This document shows positions 56,793 through 64,000 of a stretch of DNA of 64,000 bases, one piece after another. A program made the translations under genes and the position numbers. The stretch lies in the NCBI RefSeq assembly GCF_900106535.1, contig NZ_FNOH01000004.1, positions 186,001 through 250,000 of the forward strand, given 5' to 3'. The notes under the pieces are model-generated. The model was not told the DNA's origin, did no database searches, and saw only the letters and a program-made list of their open reading frames with translations. Position 1 is the first letter of the stretch; every line of letters starts with the position of its first letter. The stretch comes from Myxococcus xanthus (GTDB taxonomy: Bacteria > Myxococcota > Myxococcia > Myxococcales > Myxococcaceae).

Positions 56793-57614
56793 CTATGAGC
56801 GCACCTCCAGTGGCAGCTCCAACTCGAGTTGTGTGAGCGGAGTCGCCCCCAATCCCGCCCCCTGGAAGAAGCGCGCCAGGGGGCCTTCCGGCACGACGGC
56901 GCTCACGGCCAGCGCCTTCCCGGGCCACCGGGCGGCAAGAGCCCCCAGGAGCCTGCGGCCAGCGCCCTGCCCTCGGGCCGAGGGCTCCACCCCCACGGAC
57001 CGGACGACCAGCGTGGGCGCCGACACATCCGCCACCATCGCCACCGCGGGGCCCAGCCGGAATGCTCGCGCGGGCAACGCCAACCCCATGACTGTCGCGG
57101 GAGCCAGTTGCCAGGGCAATCCTTCGGGAAGCAGCCGCGCGCACTCCCACGGGTCGACTTCCTCCAGCGCGGATGCCCCCACCCAGGGCTCGGGCGTCCC
57201 CATGAAGCCCACCAGCCGGCGCACGCGCTGGAAGCCCAACCGTTCGTAGAGCGTCACCGCGGGGGCGTTCTGTTCAATGACCTCCAGAAGCATCCGGGTG
57301 TCGCCACGCGCTCGCGCGTCCTCCAGCAGTGGGCGCAGCATGGCACCTCCCAGTTTGCGATTCCGCCAGGCGGGCACCACCCCCATGCCCGCCACGCGGC
57401 TCTCCCGTCCCCGGCGGGCCATCAACACGAGCCCCACGGGCTCCCCGTCCACGCGCGCAACGCGGCTTTCCTCGAGCGAGATGTGCTCACTGCGCACGCG
57501 TGCATCGAACAGGCCGGGGGCATCGGGCACGGTGACGAAATACCCCTCGAAGGCGCGGGCAAACAGCGTGGAGAGGGTGCGCAGTGGCAGTTCCGACGCG
57601 GAAGTCAATTGCAT
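56793..57614 (-). CDS. Double GNAT-domain acetyltransferase-like protein
   Basis: 273 residues from ATG at 57614, where GGAGG lies 11 bases upstream; 57638 is a possible longer start. The first GNAT domain (about 1-145) has the acetyl-CoA loop VVPAWRNRKLGGAML and the closing NAPAVTLYERLGFQRVRR. The second (about 155-273) has VRSVGVEPSARGQGAGRRLLGAL. The first shows a classical Q/RxxGxG/A-type signature in altered form (RNRKLGG). The acceptor is unknown. It is divergent from the PAP2 gene and follows addB after a 161-base gap without visible features. Confidence 0.88.
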   Translation of the reverse strand: MQLTSASELPLRTLSTLFARAFEGYFVTVPDAPGLFDARVRSEHISLEESRVARVDGEPVGLVLMARRGRESRVAGMGVVPAWRNRKLGGAMLRPLLEDARARGDTRMLLEVIEQNAPAVTLYERLGFQRVRRLVGFMGTPEPWVGASALEEVDPWECARLLPEGLPWQLAPATVMGLALPARAFRLGPAVAMVADVSAPTLVVRSVGVEPSARGQGAGRRLLGALAARWPGKALAVSAVVPEGPLARFFQGAGLGATPLTQLELELPLEVRS

Positions 57615-57701
57615 GAGAGGGCACACCTCCAAAGACATGCGGGTCCGAGTCTACGCAGGAAGTCATGTGACTTCGCTGGAACCCGACGGGATTGCGCCCC
57701 T

Positions 57702-58610
57702 ATGCTGCCAGCCGTGCGCCTTCCTTATCGAGCGTTTGCCGTTGCCGTCCTTCTGAGCGTCGTCCCCTTCGCCCCCGCCGCCGCGCAAGACGGCTCGGAC
57801 GAGCCGCGGCTCCATGAGCTCCGCTTCGACTGGACCCGGGATGGCGTCAGCACCGGCGTGGCGGGCGTGCTGTGGATTTCCAGTGAGGCGTTCTTCAAAG
57901 ACAACCTGGCCCCGGCGCAGTGCCGCTGGTGCGACCGCGCGCCGGATGGGACGGACCGCCTCAACCGGCTGGACCGCTGGGGACGCGGCATCGTCGGGTC
58001 GACGCCGTCCGCCCGCAAACGGGCCCACAACTGGAGCAACATCATCGGCTTCGGCGCGCTGCCGGCGGGAGTGCTCGGCATCCAGTACGCCATGGGCCAT
58101 GGCTCGGGCGCTCCGACTCGCTACTTCGCCCAGGACGCCACCATCATCGTCCAGAGCGCGGTGTTCGCCTCCCTGGCGAACCAGACGGTGAAGTTCATCG
58201 CCGGCCGCGAGCGCCCCTTCGTCCACGTGCTGCCCGAGGACCAGAAGGGCCTCACCGACCACCCCAGCGACAACAACCTGTCCTTCTACAGCGGCCACAC
58301 CAACCTCGCCTTCTCGCTGGTGGTGTCCGCGGGCACCGTCGCCGCGCTGCGCGGCTACAAGCACCAGGCGTGGCTCTGGGCGGTGGGCCTGCCCGTGGCC
58401 ACCTCCGTGGGCCTGCTGCGCATGGGCGCCGACAAGCACTACCTCACGGACGTGGCCACCGGCGCATTGCTCGGCTCGGCGTTCGGCGTCGCCGTGCCCC
58501 TGCTGCTCCATGGCCGGAAGGGCGAGGCCTCGCCGGACATCCAGTCAGGGCAGATCCAGATGGCGCCCGTGGCCAGCGCGCGGATGATGGGCATCTCCGG
58601 CACCTTCTAG
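57702..58610 (+). CDS. PAP2-family membrane phosphatase
   Basis: 302 residues. A signal peptide or signal anchor (MLPAVRLPYRAFAVAVLLSV to AAAQ near 29) is followed by a Cys-containing periplasmic stretch. The catalytic PAP2 triad is intact: KFIAGRERP (KxxxxxxRP) near 165, FYSGHTNLAF near 203, and GADKHYLTDVATG (RxxxxxHxxxD form) near 245. Four or five membrane segments carry the active site on the periplasmic face. Likely a lipid or undecaprenyl phosphate phosphatase. The 3' end overlaps the convergent metallophosphoesterase gene by four bases. GTG at 57714 is an alternative start. Confidence 0.9.
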   Translation: MLPAVRLPYRAFAVAVLLSVVPFAPAAAQDGSDEPRLHELRFDWTRDGVSTGVAGVLWISSEAFFKDNLAPAQCRWCDRAPDGTDRLNRLDRWGRGIVGSTPSARKRAHNWSNIIGFGALPAGVLGIQYAMGHGSGAPTRYFAQDATIIVQSAVFASLANQTVKFIAGRERPFVHVLPEDQKGLTDHPSDNNLSFYSGHTNLAFSLVVSAGTVAALRGYKHQAWLWAVGLPVATSVGLLRMGADKHYLTDVATGALLGSAFGVAVPLLLHGRKGEASPDIQSGQIQMAPVASARMMGISGTF

Positions 58611-59539
58611 TTCCGCGCCGGCATCGCCTCTCCGAGGCCGAACTCCGCGGGGGCGCCCTCTCCCTCCGCGGCCAGCGGGGGCAGCGAGTTCATGTCCCAG
58701 CGCTGGCCGGCGGTCCACGAGATGGCGCCCGACAGGCCCCAGCCCGCGCGCAGGGCCTGACGGTCCTCGTACTCCAACCAGAAGATGGACTCCTGGGCCC
58801 TGGCCGCCTGGTCCAGGCAGGCGATGCGGGTGGCCGGACGTCCCGGGCCCTCCAGCGTCACCGCGAAGCCCTTGTGCGAGTGGCCGCACAGCATCCACTT
58901 CGGCAACACCGTGTCCACGAGCCGCCGCGTCACGGGATTGCCAATCCAATAAGAGGGGAGCGGCCTTGGCGGTGACGGGTTCTCCTCCCGCGCGCGCTGG
59001 ACGATGCCTCGCGGCCATTCGTGGACCAGCATCAGGTCCACGTCGCGGAGCTCCGCCACCTGTTCGACCTCCGGCGTGCGGAAGTAGCCGGCCTGCTTCA
59101 CCATGTCCGGCGTGGAGGGTGGCTTCAGTGGCTGGTCGACGAAGCGCGGCGCGTGGATGCCTGACAGGTACGCCACCCGCAGTCCGCACAGCTCGCGAAC
59201 CCCGGCTCGGCCCAGGTACGTCACGTTCGGCGCCAGCGTGCCGCCCAGTTGGAGGTCGTGCAGCGCCTCGAAGTCCTCGTTGTTACCCCCGATGAAGTAC
59301 AGGGGCCGCTTCACTTGCCGGAGTCCATCCGCGTATTCCGCGAACTCGGCGGGCATGGCTCGCTTGGCGGCCTTGCGCCGGTGGTCATCCGAGCGGCGGA
59401 AGGCTTCGACGTCGCCCACCGCCAGCACCAGGTCCACCCGGCGGCCACGAGCCTGCTCAAGCGCGTCCAGCCACGTCTCCACACGGTGGAAGCGGCCATG
59501 GATGTCGCCCACGGCCGCGACAAGTAGGGGTTCCGGCAT
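58607..59539 (-). CDS. Dbr1-like (RNA lariat debranching enzyme-like) metallophosphoesterase
   Basis: 310 residues. Calcineurin-type metal motifs: GDIHG at 11-15, GDVEAFR at 42-48, GGNNE at 84-88, HEWPRGI at 173-179, and CGHSHKGF at 218-225. Beyond these, whole blocks match eukaryotic lariat debranching enzyme Dbr1: YFIGGNNE followed by GGTLAPNVTYLGRAGVREL and LRVAYLSGI, then the WPRGI motif and the ending block GNPVTRRLVDTVLPKWMLC. Two differences: the first motif keeps Asp12 where Dbr1 has Cys, and Asn87 replaces the His of GNHE. There is no signal peptide, so it is cytoplasmic. Substrate inferred from homology only. Divergent from Ada-AlkA, convergent with the PAP2 gene. Confidence 0.85.
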   Translation of the reverse strand: MPEPLLVAAVGDIHGRFHRVETWLDALEQARGRRVDLVLAVGDVEAFRRSDDHRRKAAKRAMPAEFAEYADGLRQVKRPLYFIGGNNEDFEALHDLQLGGTLAPNVTYLGRAGVRELCGLRVAYLSGIHAPRFVDQPLKPPSTPDMVKQAGYFRTPEVEQVAELRDVDLMLVHEWPRGIVQRAREENPSPPRPLPSYWIGNPVTRRLVDTVLPKWMLCGHSHKGFAVTLEGPGRPATRIACLDQAARAQESIFWLEYEDRQALRAGWGLSGAISWTAGQRWDMNSLPPLAAEGEGAPAEFGLGEAMPARN

Positions 59540-59733: not shown

Positions 59734-61326
59734 ATGAACGGCTTGGACGCCAGCGCGTGCTACCGCGCGATGCAGACCCGAGATGCCCGCTTCGACGGCC
59801 GGTTCTTCACCGCCGTCCGGACGACGCGCATCTATTGCCGGCCCATCTGCCCGGCCCGGACGCCCCGGTTCGAGAACTGCACCTTCTATCCGAGCGCCGC
59901 CGGGGCGCAGGAGGCGGGCTACCGGCCCTGCCTGCGCTGCCGCCCGGAGACGTCACCGGACCTCGCCTTCTGGCGGGGCACCTCCAACACCGTCGCCCGG
60001 GCCCTGGCGCTCATCGCCGAGGGCGGCCTGGATGACGACGATGCCGGGGTGGAGGAGCTCGCGGGCCGGCTGGGCGTGGGCGACCGGCAGCTGCGGCGGT
60101 TGTTCCAGCAGCACCTGGGAGCCTCGCCCGTAGCCGTCGCCCAGACACGGCGTGTGCTGTTCGCCCGGCAGCTCCTGCACGAGACGACCCTGCCCATGGC
60201 CGAGGTGGCACTGGCCTCGGGGTTCCGCAGCGTCCGCCGCTTCAACGACGTGTTCCGCGCCCTGTATGGACGGCCTCCCAGCGCGCTCCGCCGGAGCCGA
60301 GCCCCGGTGGGCGATGCCGCCGCGGGTGTCACGCTCTTCATCCCCTACCAGCCCCCCTATGACTGGGAAGCGATGCTGGCGCATCTGGAGGCACGGGCCC
60401 TACCGGGCCTGGAACACATCGAGGCCGGGCGCTACCGGCGGACCGTGGCGACCGCGGGCGGTCAGGGCGCCGTCGAAGTCTTCCGAGCCCCTGGACGCGA
60501 CGGGTTGCTCGCGACGCTCCGCCTCCCCCAGGTTCAGGCCCTGCCCACGGTGGTGGGGCAGGTCCGGCGCGTCTTCGACGTGGGCGCGGACATGGACGTC
60601 ATCCGGGAACACCTGTCCCGCGACCCGCACCTCGCTCCGCTGGTGTCCCTGCGGCCGGGACTGCGAGCGCCGGGAGGCTGGGACGGCTTCGAGCTCGCGG
60701 TCCGGGCCGTGTTGGGACAGCAAGTCACGGTCGCCGCGGCGCGCGGACTCGGGGCGCGGCTGGTCGCGGCGTATGGCGAGCCCGCCGGTGTCGCATCGAC
60801 GGGAGACGCCCGGCTGATGCGCACCTTTCCCCGGCCGGAGAGACTGGCGCAGGAGGACTTGAGCTCGCTCGGCATGCCCGCCGCCAGGGCACGGACCCTG
60901 TCGAGCCTGGCCGCGGCGGCCGCAGCGGACCCGAGGCTGTTCCAGCCACGCGCCACGCTGGAGGAGGCCGTCGAACGCTTCAAACGCATCCCCGGCATCG
61001 GAGATTGGACGGCGCAGTACATCGCGCTGCGCGCCGTGCGCGAAACGGATGCCTTCCCTTCGGCGGATGTCGCACTGCTGCGTGCGCTCACGGGCGAGGA
61101 TGGCGTGCGGCCTTCTCCAGATGAAGCGCTCCGCCGCTCCGCGGCCTGGAGCCCCTGGCGTGCCTATGCAGCACAGCACCTCTGGGCCGCGGATGCCGCC
61201 CGGCCCGGACCCACACCCCACCTTTCCCGTTCCTCCTCGCGACAGAGAGATGACGATGCCCCCACCGCTGCGTTTGCTCATGGACCGCGCCCCCACGCCC
61301 ATCGGCTCGATGCTGGTCGTCTGTGA
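59734..61326 (+). CDS. Ada-AlkA fusion: methylphosphotriester sensor and 3-methyladenine DNA glycosylase
   Basis: 530 residues from ATG at 59734. Domain order: an Ada-type zinc domain (about 5-75) with Cys35, Cys39, Cys66 and Cys69 in the same spacing as E. coli Ada Cys38, 42, 69 and 72; an AraC DNA-binding domain (about 85-190) with FRSVRRFNDVFRALYGRPP; an AlkA N-terminal domain (about 195-280); and the HhH-GPD glycosylase with IPGIGDWTAQYIALRAV near 425 and Asp in SADVALLRAL. It senses DNA methyl damage and removes alkylated bases. The same fusion exists in mycobacteria. The last 77 bases overlap the ogt gene, and the C-terminal 45 residues are low in family match. Confidence 0.92.
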   Translation: MNGLDASACYRAMQTRDARFDGRFFTAVRTTRIYCRPICPARTPRFENCTFYPSAAGAQEAGYRPCLRCRPETSPDLAFWRGTSNTVARALALIAEGGLDDDDAGVEELAGRLGVGDRQLRRLFQQHLGASPVAVAQTRRVLFARQLLHETTLPMAEVALASGFRSVRRFNDVFRALYGRPPSALRRSRAPVGDAAAGVTLFIPYQPPYDWEAMLAHLEARALPGLEHIEAGRYRRTVATAGGQGAVEVFRAPGRDGLLATLRLPQVQALPTVVGQVRRVFDVGADMDVIREHLSRDPHLAPLVSLRPGLRAPGGWDGFELAVRAVLGQQVTVAAARGLGARLVAAYGEPAGVASTGDARLMRTFPRPERLAQEDLSSLGMPAARARTLSSLAAAAAADPRLFQPRATLEEAVERFKRIPGIGDWTAQYIALRAVRETDAFPSADVALLRALTGEDGVRPSPDEALRRSAAWSPWRAYAAQHLWAADAARPGPTPHLSRSSSRQRDDDAPTAAFAHGPRPHAHRLDAGRL

Positions 61327-61807
61327 CGAAGCGGGCAGCCTGCGCGCGCTCGACTGGGAGGAGTACGAGCCCCGGATGCTCCGGCTGCTGCGGCTCCACT
61401 ACGGCGTGAACGGCTACGTGCTCGAGCCCGCGAGCGACCCCTTCGGCAGGACGACCGCGATGCAGACCTATCTGCGCGGAGACGTCAGCGTCATCGACTC
61501 GTTGCCCGTGGCCACCGCGGGTACGCCATTCCAGCGAGAAGTCTGGCGCGCGCTGCGTGACATCCCCGCGGGCGCCACCACGAGCTACGGCCAACTGGCC
61601 CAGCGAATCGGCCGCCCCAAGGCCGTGCGCGCCGTGGGGATGGCCAACGGCGCCAACCCGATTGGCGTGGTGGTCCCCTGCCACCGGGTGGTGGGGGCCA
61701 ACGCCTCGCTGACGGGCTACGGCGGTGGACTGGAGCGCAAGCAGTGGCTGCTCGACCACGAGCGCCGCCATGCATCGCGCGGGACGACGCGGCCACCAAC
61801 GCGCTGA
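61250..61807 (+). CDS. ogt: O6-methylguanine-DNA methyltransferase
   Basis: 185 residues. It transfers methyl groups from O6-methylguanine to its own Cys in a suicide reaction. The active site PIGVVVPCHRVVGA has Cys near residue 144. FQREVWRALRDIPAGATTSYGQLA and GYGGGLERKQWLLDHE complete the domain. The start may be ATG at 61250 or 61256, behind ACAGAGAG. It begins 77 bases inside the 3' end of the Ada-AlkA gene, so translation is coupled. Together they provide the adaptive response. The last 14 residues are basic and tail-like. Confidence 0.94.
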   Translation: MTMPPPLRLLMDRAPTPIGSMLVVCDEAGSLRALDWEEYEPRMLRLLRLHYGVNGYVLEPASDPFGRTTAMQTYLRGDVSVIDSLPVATAGTPFQREVWRALRDIPAGATTSYGQLAQRIGRPKAVRAVGMANGANPIGVVVPCHRVVGANASLTGYGGGLERKQWLLDHERRHASRGTTRPPTR

Positions 61808-61868: not shown

Positions 61869-64000
61869 TCAGCCGCAGCCCAGCGGGTACGTCACCTCTA
61901 CCAGCGAACCCGCCTCGGGCGCCGTGAAGCGGTCGAAGAGGATGGCATTCTCGCGGGCGTCGTACTCCCAACCGGACGTCACGCGGACGCCGTCCACATC
62001 AACGACGATGCTGCCTGGAGCTTCCGGCGTCTCGGACAGGGGGAACTTGCGGTTCGCGCCAAAGGTGCTGTCGGACAGCTTCTCCAACGAGCTGGCCCAG
62101 TTCGGCGTGCAGATGCTTTCCACCACGCCGCCCGTGGCCTCCGCCAGTTGGATGTAGCGGGTGCCCGAGCTGCTGGACGTGGGGCACCTGGCCAGGTCCG
62201 ACGGCCCGACGATGGCATTGACGCTCAGCTTCGAGCGGTCATTGCCCTTCAGCGCCAGCAGGTACGTCTCGTAGAAGGACACCGGCTGCGCGCTGAAGTC
62301 TTCCTCGTCCGACACGAAGATGATGGCCAGGCGGGCATCCTCGCGCAGGAAGCCTGCGTTGCCGTCGTTGGGCTGCGCGGTGCGCGGGTCATCCTCGTTA
62401 TAGAGCAGCGGGTCCGCCAACGCGCGGTAGGCGGCCTCCAGTCCCTGCTCGTTCCAATGGCAGACACCCACGCGGGTGTTGCTGGCGAAGACGCCCGCGG
62501 CATCCGGCGTCGCCGGGGTGATGATGCGCGGCCGGGAGCCGTCCACTGGGAACAGGCGGCCATTGTCTCCGCCCTGCGAGCCGCCCGGGCACTCGGACCA
62601 GCCGCCCGGAGACGGGTCCAAGCCCGTGGTGGTGACGCCGATGCGGTAGTCCACCGCGGCGCCGTCCGCCGCGCTCAGGAAGGCCGCGAAGTTCTGCCCC
62701 AGGTTCTGCTGCTCCTCCATCATCGACCCCGAGTTGTCGACCACGAAGAGCACGTCCACCTTCGCCTGTGACTCCTGGAAGAAGCGGTCCGTCTGCTCCG
62801 CCTGCGTCACGCCCCATCCCACCATGCCCACCGTGTAGACGGAGCCATCCGCCAGGGTGAAACGCAACGCCGCCGTGTCAGCGCCGTCATCCACCGGGGC
62901 ATAGGTCGCCGTCAGCGCGCGCGCGCTCTGGCTCGCCAGCGTCCACGGGGCGTTGCCGCCACCATCCACGGTGAACTCGCCCGCCCCTGCGTCGATCGCC
63001 ACCTGGCTCACCTGGATGGGCCCGACACACGAGTTCACGGCCACCAACTCCCGTGTGCGCGGGCCGCACGCCAGCTTGGTAACGCCGAAGTCCACCGTGG
63101 TGGGCTGCACCGCGAAGCATCCCACGACGCCCTCGCCCTGCAGCTCCACCAGCGGGTGCCCTTGCGTGGGGCTGTTCACCCAGGCCTCGGCCAGCCCCGA
63201 GAAGCCGCCTTCCTCGGAGGGCCTGAAGCGGACCACCAGCGTCGCCTTCGCGCCCGGCTCCAGCACGCCGTTGCGCACGGGAGACGCGGAGAACACCCTG
63301 TCCGAACCCTGGACGAGCTGCATCGACGCCAGGTAGCACGCCTCCGTGCCCGAGTTCCGCAGCGTCACCCCCAGCGCCACCTCCGCGCCCACCGGCACCT
63401 TGCCGAAGTCCAGTTGCTGGGGCAGCACGTACTGGCACGGCGCGAACACCCGGCTGCGCCCCTCCAGCGCCACCGCCTCCGTGGCCGCGGAGCCGCTGTC
63501 ACGCACCGTGACGGAGAGCTGTCCCTTGCTGGCGTCCGTGCTCCCCGCCTTGGGCCGGAAGGTGACGCTCACCCGGGCATTCTGCCCCGCGGGCACCATC
63601 ACGCTGGCGGGCGCCTGGGCCAGGGTGAAGTAGCCGCCCTGGTGCGTGTCGAGTTGGAGGTCGGTGACGCTCACGTCCGCACGGCAACGGTTGTAGACGG
63701 TGACGTCGCGCGTCGCCGTCATGCCCTCCGCCACCGTTCCGAAAGCCAGCCGCCGGGGCAGCACCGTCACGCACGAGCCGCCACCTTCACCCGCCAGCGA
63801 CACCTTGGGGCCCGGCGCGCTGGAGCCCTGCTCGCGCACGCCAATCTCCACCCGCCCGTCACGCACCTTGCCCACCGCCGCCGGCGTGAAGGCGACGCGC
63901 AGCTCCACCGCCGCGCCCGGTGCCAACTGCCCGTTGGCCACCACCGGCTCACTGGCGATGCGGAAGACGCCCTCCGAGCTGTCCACCAACTGCGAGCCCG
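61869..64000 (-). CDS. Surface protein with anchor-type repeats and VWA domain, 5' end outside window
   Basis: The frame is open to the window end, so the N-terminus is missing; 710 codons are visible. At least three HYDIN/ASPM-type beta-sandwich units carry the recurring pattern xC-x-VLP-xx-LxFGxV-xxG: SCVTVLPRRLAFGTV, PCQYVLPQQLDFGKV and GCFAVQPTTVDFGVT. A VWA domain follows with the MIDAS motif DNSGS in VDVLFVVDNSGSMMEEQQ near base 62740 and a later IIFVSDEEDFS. A short closing beta domain ends in CG. It should lie outside the cell or on the surface and bind proteins with a metal-dependent site. Many such proteins occur in myxobacteria. Confidence 0.88.
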   Translation of the reverse strand, partial: GSQLVDSSEGVFRIASEPVVANGQLAPGAAVELRVAFTPAAVGKVRDGRVEIGVREQGSSAPGPKVSLAGEGGGSCVTVLPRRLAFGTVAEGMTATRDVTVYNRCRADVSVTDLQLDTHQGGYFTLAQAPASVMVPAGQNARVSVTFRPKAGSTDASKGQLSVTVRDSGSAATEAVALEGRSRVFAPCQYVLPQQLDFGKVPVGAEVALGVTLRNSGTEACYLASMQLVQGSDRVFSASPVRNGVLEPGAKATLVVRFRPSEEGGFSGLAEAWVNSPTQGHPLVELQGEGVVGCFAVQPTTVDFGVTKLACGPRTRELVAVNSCVGPIQVSQVAIDAGAGEFTVDGGGNAPWTLASQSARALTATYAPVDDGADTAALRFTLADGSVYTVGMVGWGVTQAEQTDRFFQESQAKVDVLFVVDNSGSMMEEQQNLGQNFAAFLSAADGAAVDYRIGVTTTGLDPSPGGWSECPGGSQGGDNGRLFPVDGSRPRIITPATPDAAGVFASNTRVGVCHWNEQGLEAAYRALADPLLYNEDDPRTAQPNDGNAGFLREDARLAIIFVSDEEDFSAQPVSFYETYLLALKGNDRSKLSVNAIVGPSDLARCPTSSSSGTRYIQLAEATGGVVESICTPNWASSLEKLSDSTFGANRKFPLSETPEAPGSIVVDVDGVRVTSGWEYDARENAILFDRFTAPEAGSLVEVTYPLGCG

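Follow-up and report, generated by a model that had tools for sequence, protein, structure and literature searches.

A gene on the minus strand of the window (the whole analysed stretch of DNA, 64,000 nucleotides) encodes a protein, here called A, which belongs to a bacterial branch of the calcineurin-like phosphoesterases with Dbr1 and CWF19-like protein 1 (CWF19L1) as its nearest solved relatives. Its fold is ordinary, and what is unusual is its kinship, that of a bacterial Dbr1-like family. In a myxobacterial clade of this family the position of the proposed catalytic His of Dbr1 is occupied by Asn, and within the limits of the tree this is one substitution that became fixed and is maintained under purifying selection. 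Judging from the residues kept and exchanged, we regard it as somewhat probable that A is an active metal-dependent phosphoesterase of shifted specificity, while a canonical 2',5'- or msDNA-debranching role of A appears unlikely. Among the two family members of this genome, the second one, B, is the more promising as a candidate debranching enzyme of bacteria and the one to assay.

Gene A and its surroundings

Gene A is an open reading frame of 310 codons running from ATG to TAG; the plus-strand reading of the same interval is interrupted by stops. The gene is thus real as described in an earlier note on this DNA. It lies in a genome of 9.26 Mb, and the nearest named record is Myxococcus xanthus AM003 (99% identical). 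The features of the region are:

58607..59539, minus strand: Dbr1-like metallophosphoesterase, A subfamily (GGNNE), 310 aa (ORF, phmmer, fold comparison)
56829..58610, plus strand: convergent ORF encoding a PAP2 phosphatase domain; the gene starts within the ORF (ORF list, domain search)
59734..61326, plus strand: Ada (Zn-binding, AraC-type HTH)-AlkA fusion, divergent, on the 5' side of gene A
61869..63989, minus strand: ORF with an ASH/HYDIN-type Ig domain, upstream of gene A on the same strand

The stop codons of the convergent PAP2 ORF and of gene A overlap in a palindromic CTAG at 58607-58610. PAP2 neighbours were left out of the neighbourhood counts. Among 45 A loci the ASH-domain gene was present in 25, and in 22 of them it lay directly upstream of A in the same orientation, the two being separated by no called gene. 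In the remaining three (L050, L051, L053) the Ada-AlkA gene, which was found near A in 4/45 loci, lies between the two. Within the window, Ada-AlkA and Ogt (59734-61807) separate the ASH-domain gene from the phosphoesterase gene and are read from the opposite strand. Because the ASH-domain gene and A adjoin each other without them in 22/45 loci, this block appears to have been inserted in the M. xanthus group.

The neighbourhood was discarded as a guide to function. Most of the deeper A members are without the ASH-domain gene, and in 35 B loci no neighbour cluster occurred in more than 5. With neighbours patchy around A and scattered around B, neither set names a substrate. Further observations concern single lineages. 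In four Myxococcus/Pyxidicoccus loci (L104, L121, L124, L126) a DEAD-box-helicase-like gene, named by eye, follows B. Four deep A members (L078, L079, L082, L083) carry C-terminal extensions, giving proteins of 374-387 aa, and all have a member of cluster 12 as a downstream neighbour, which was found next to none of the other A loci. In one genome (G017, locus L028) the A gene falls into two reading frames close to the 3' end.

Kinship to Dbr1

Profile libraries placed the window protein in the superfamily. Up to E 10, Pfam returned generic phosphoesterase models only, and of these only Metallophos (PF00149) exceeded its cut-off (47.7 bits vs 21.5). Among the NCBIfam models the protein came nowhere near a cut-off, with 13.7 vs 56.25 bits for YfcE and 13.8 vs 188 for YaeI. 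It was unmatched in PADLOC, and the PHROGs model phrog_1649, named 'metallo-phosphoesterase' and carrying no function beyond its name, was matched by A at 9.4e-10 and by B at 2.7e-18.

The resemblance to Dbr1 greatly exceeds what chance would give. A phmmer search of 177,635 distinct PDB sequences retrieved five Entamoeba Dbr1 sequences (E 4.1e-24 to 2.9e-23), followed by CWF19L1 at 9.5e-10 and nothing further up to E 10. With a profile of 48 relatives Dbr1 reached E 2e-49 and CWF19L1 2e-16 and 1e-14, and nothing else scored under 0.001. An AlphaFold2 model of the window protein (mean pLDDT 92.2) gave Dbr1 as best Foldseek match (1.9e-23, vs 2e-8 for LpxH). In VIA-align it superposed on Entamoeba Dbr1 with Z 29.8 and an rmsd of 2.4 A over 250 residues, followed by CWF19L1 with Z 24.2 and the next protein with 18.3. 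The structural match stops at Dbr1 residue 265-266.

The earlier note had proposed kinship to Dbr1 from a series of sequence blocks, all of which are present (GDVEAFR, YFIGGNNE, APNVTYLGRAGV, LRVAYLSGI, HEWPRGI and CGHSHKGF). This proposal is strongly supported, as phmmer, profile, Foldseek and VIA-align all place Dbr1 first, and a search for a closer match to another phosphoesterase family, the outcome that would have spoken against it, found none. The set of metal ligands of A is complete and in order: Asp12, His14, Asp43, Asn86, His173, His220 and His222. In literature searches of the accessible papers, no title or displayed abstract dealt with a bacterial Dbr1 relative.

Active-site substitutions are fixed in the A subfamily

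A structural study of Entamoeba Dbr1 describes His91 as placed to donate a proton to the 2'-O leaving group and the branch adenine as sandwiched by His16 and Tyr64. Cys14 is invariant in Dbr1, and its replacement in C14S left no detectable activity in vitro (PMC4176325). The alignments confirm that Asp12 of A stands at Cys14 and Asn87 at His91, as had been noticed earlier. The sites in question are:

59504..59506, minus strand: codon of Asp12 (Entamoeba Dbr1 Cys14), from the alignments; Asp also in B rows
59279..59281, minus strand: codon AAC of Asn87 (Dbr1 His91, the proposed catalytic acid), Asn in 77/77 A rows
59360..59362, minus strand: codon of Arg60 (Dbr1 Tyr64, the residue stacked on the branch nucleotide), Arg in 77/77 A rows
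59375..59377, minus strand: codon of Arg55 (Dbr1 Lys59), Arg in 77/77 A rows
59078..59164, minus strand: residues 126-154, aligned with the lariat recognition loop of Dbr1
58697..58744, minus strand: A-specific C-terminal block, residues 266-281 (GWG...W...W), from the family alignment

The family alignment comprised 130 rows. Four were left out, namely L049 (remote), L028b (a wrong-frame piece), L094 (truncated) and L114, which has the His but Arg at the Tyr64 position. The remaining rows were 77 A and 49 B, which are not independent species, since one species may enter from two collections. The His91 position separated the two groups completely, with Asn in 77/77 A and His in 49/49 B rows. 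At the Tyr64 position all A rows had Arg, whereas B rows had Tyr (46/49) or His (3/49). The Arg158 position was Arg in 77/77 A rows and Asn (24), Thr (23) or another residue (2) in the 49 B rows. The Met231 position, Ser221 in A, was Ser in 68/77 A rows and Met or Leu in 48/49 B rows. Asp stood at the Cys14 position across both groups. The C-terminal block was equally diagnostic: G266, W275 and W281 were found in 77/77 A rows and W267 in 76/77, with gaps in 49/49 B rows. Metal ligands passed in 97% of the A and 95% of the B rows, and all printed A and B rows keep them except the truncated L094 and the wrong-frame L028b. The pairing of Arg154 of A with Dbr1 Arg158 was seen in the phmmer and MAFFT alignments and not in the profile alignment.

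A first search of 61 genomes had found Asn in all 33 A-type matches, and 12/12 further loci, several of them contigs of rows already counted, had both GGNNE and the GWG block. In a tree of 60 rows, a branch supported at 100/100 set A apart, and a single His-to-Asn change is needed; the Dbr1 row forms a very long branch in this tree and several long branches meet, which leaves rooting and deep order unsure. The dN/dS ratios were 0.085-0.302 for 11 pairs of A genes, with some genes entering more than one pair, and 0.335 and 0.279 in two B pairs. A pseudogene or a sequencing error as the source of the Asn is ruled out by its presence in 77/77 rows together with these ratios in the A pairs. The protein set apart above, encoded at L114:4974-5894 of a groundwater MAG, may be an intermediate between B and A, judged from its combination of His and Arg.

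Paralogue B and the distribution of the family

The same genome encodes B (C12:22147-22899, L002:1480-2307), which has an intact GGNHE and is 38% identical to A over residues 6-251. Its similarity to Dbr1 exceeds that of the window protein: phmmer gave 2.9e-33, and the model of B (pLDDT 92.8) superposed on Dbr1 with Z 32.2 and rmsd 2.1 over 255 residues. Like A, B has Asp at the Cys14 position and no Dbr1 C-terminal domain was found in it. It differs from A in keeping His91 (49/49) and Tyr64 (46/49), in having Asn or Thr at Arg158 (47/49) and in lacking the Trp-rich C-terminal block. No named family was found for B, which in PADLOC weakly matched PDC-S10 (1.2e-6).

In a sample limited to the 80 highest-ranking of 165 confirmed relatives, B-type members came from Actinomycetota, Cyanobacteriota, Acidobacteriota, Gammaproteobacteria and Myxococcota, a spread that is a lower bound. 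A-type loci from the same 80 belonged to myxobacteria, delta-proteobacterial MAGs and one record named Comamonas. The records L053 (A) and L096 (B) are named 'Comamonas sp. KCTC 72670'; this name is probably wrong and they were counted as myxobacterial. A scan of viral contigs with the window protein found no relative, whereas a scan with alignment A3 found three. One of the family members on viral contigs, L134:3995-4774 on a contig of 133 kb, is a His-type protein with Asp at the Cys14 position. Remote matches to B were seen in 36 phage and 4 plasmid records, and the single phage protein examined has no FIGGNHE block.

A loose link to reverse transcriptases

Three RVT_1 (retron-type reverse transcriptase) proteins are encoded in the genome, all outside the window. 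Their best PADLOC models were RT_XIII for two of them and, for the third, RT_other followed by RT_outgroup 'retron'. One of the three has 485 aa, the size of the retron Mx162 enzyme, and 'Mx162-type' hereafter denotes a match to this protein at E <= 1e-30. The earlier statement that the window holds no retron is consistent with tblastn of the three proteins against it, a comparison that covers the reverse transcriptase only. Across 129 A, B and related loci (969,998 bases), tblastn with the three proteins at E 1e-4 likewise gave no match, remote reverse transcriptases being missable at this setting. Coupling to retrons by neighbourhood was rejected on this result.

Co-occurrence was counted in 156 genomes of the phylum with a completeness of at least 90%, as raw numbers without adjustment for common descent or for genome size. 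A Dbr1-like match was present in 73 and RVT_1 in 103 genomes; 68 had both, 5 the Dbr1-like match only (G032, G034, G037, G071, G118), 35 RVT_1 only and 48 neither. RVT_1 thus occurred in 68/73 genomes with and 35/83 without a Dbr1-like match (Fisher p 3e-12, raw counts). Within f1, the family to which the genome of the window belongs, it occurred in 65/68 positive vs 11/18 negative genomes (p 5e-4, raw counts), and for the Mx162-type enzyme the figures were 61/68 vs 6/18 (p 3e-6, raw counts).

Exceptions were found in both directions. A was kept without an Mx162-type reverse transcriptase in 8 genomes (G032, G034, G118, G119, G120, G131, G135 and G037, the last from another family than the other seven), in each of which type A was read. 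Four of them (G032, G034, G037, G118) had no RVT_1 match at all. Conversely, six genomes of the family (G030, G097, G098, G134, G140, G141) had the Mx162-type enzyme without A. Coupling by presence was therefore reduced to a loose link, the raw counts speaking for it and the exceptions against it: the association is real in raw counts, and A does not depend on the reverse transcriptase.

What A may do

Since the metal ligands are conserved, A is likely to work in the manner of a metallophosphoesterase, and hydrolysis of a phosphoester by a metal-activated water would be expected. In A the proposed acid for the leaving group has been replaced (His91 by Asn87), along with residues around the branch nucleotide. 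Because the residues needed to open branched RNA have been permanently swapped, A probably acts on something other than branched RNA. Its substrate would then differ from that of Dbr1, being anionic and held by the new arginines, and its leaving group would depart without the help of a His acid. A may still bind branched RNA, because an Arg present in 77/77 A rows and lacking in B falls on Dbr1 Arg158 in two of three alignments.

Against this reading of A as an active phosphoesterase of shifted specificity, the loss of the catalytic His with retention of the metal ligands also fits a binding protein. In that case A would be a pseudo-enzyme, by analogy with Drn1/CWF19L1, and would hold a partner or a nucleic acid, branched or structured, that it does not cut. 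The lost acid, the invariant arginines, CWF19L1 as second closest solved relative and the presence of the catalytically more complete B in the same genome all point in this direction. The metal ligands, on the other hand, are conserved in A as they are in B and would be superfluous in a pure binder. Moreover, many genomes of the family have a single match among the matches listed, and those that were read are A, so that A seems independent of B, an argument weakened by draft assemblies and by a limit of 15 scored candidates per genome. We consider a pure binding role for A a serious though rather unlikely alternative.

That A debranches msDNA or branched RNA in the full sense, working without the His, we judge improbable. 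In its favour, Dbr1 is the nearest family with a solved structure, the lariat recognition loop is matched by a stretch of comparable length, three retron-type reverse transcriptases are encoded in the genome, and the raw co-occurrence with such enzymes is significant. Against it, A is without His91, Tyr64, Cys14 and the C-terminal domain, and Entamoeba Dbr1 deprived of Cys14, of the loop or of the C-terminal domain no longer debranches in yeast (PMC4176325). It also sits poorly with the 8 genomes that have A without an Mx162-type enzyme, four of them without any RVT_1 match, with the six family members showing the reverse, and with the 129 loci in which no reverse transcriptase matched. Still less credible, indeed very improbable, is a housekeeping phosphoesterase of the type of YfcE, LpxH, GpdQ or the purple acid phosphatases, bearing Dbr1-like blocks by chance. 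Although the generic Metallophos model is the only one of Pfam to exceed its cut-off, the scores against YfcE and YaeI are low, and both sequence and fold place LpxH, GpdQ and the purple acid phosphatases well below Dbr1. Of the earlier proposal, then, the kinship to Dbr1 stands; msDNA debranching by A is not borne out, as His, Tyr, Cys and the C-terminal domain are missing and A persists without the reverse transcriptase and the reverse transcriptase without A; and paralogue B, which keeps both His and Tyr, had gone unseen.

Comparison with Dbr1 and CWF19L1

Dbr1 is described as central to eukaryotic RNA metabolism (PMC4176325) and as the only known enzyme that selectively cuts the 2',5' bond of lariats (PMC10470207). 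Entamoeba histolytica Dbr1 (PDB 4pef, 4peh, 5k77) and A are alike in the metallophosphoesterase domain and in the order of the blocks. A has equivalents of Dbr1 His16, Asp45, Asn90, His180, Trp182, His230 and His232, and the distance from the Ile of SGI to the His of HxWP is 45 residues in A vs 48 in Dbr1. At the lariat recognition loop (130-158) A has a stretch of near-equal length, in which the pairing of Arg154 with Arg158 depends on the alignment. The two proteins differ at Cys14 (Asp in A), His91 (Asn), Tyr64 (Arg), Lys59 (Arg) and Met231 (mostly Ser). The Dbr1 C-terminal domain (262-354; PF05011) was not found in the window protein up to E 10, nor, with E values as high as 1, in 32 members of the family, and in its place A has the Trp-rich block. 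For Entamoeba Dbr1 the structural study reports that debranching in yeast is lost without Cys14, the loop (130-158) or the C-terminal domain (PMC4176325). As His91, Tyr64, Cys14 and this domain are missing, A is not to be filed as a Dbr1.

This is a bacterial family with Dbr1 as its nearest solved relative, and it comprises a His type, present in several phyla, and an Asn type that is fixed in the myxobacteria. A and B thereby offer a concrete gene pair for the question whether msDNA or group II intron lariats are enzymatically debranched in bacteria, and because a single laboratory organism (Myxococcus xanthus and near relatives) carries the two genes, the question is testable by deletion.

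CWF19L1/Drn1 (PDB 8ro2) is second closest to A in sequence (9.5e-10) and fold (Z 24.2). It has further CwfJ C-terminal domains after its phosphoesterase domain, which A lacks, as only phosphoesterase Pfam models matched the window protein up to E 10. Beside Dbr1, Drn1/CWF19L1 presumably binds without cutting. By analogy, and as a doubtful proposal, A and B might form a bacterial debranching pair in which B would cleave the 2',5' branches of msDNA or group II intron lariats, while A would be a myxobacterial offshoot with an altered site that binds branched nucleic acid, standing to B as Drn1 does to Dbr1. If this were true, the Dbr1/Drn1 group would have bacterial roots older than the spliceosome.
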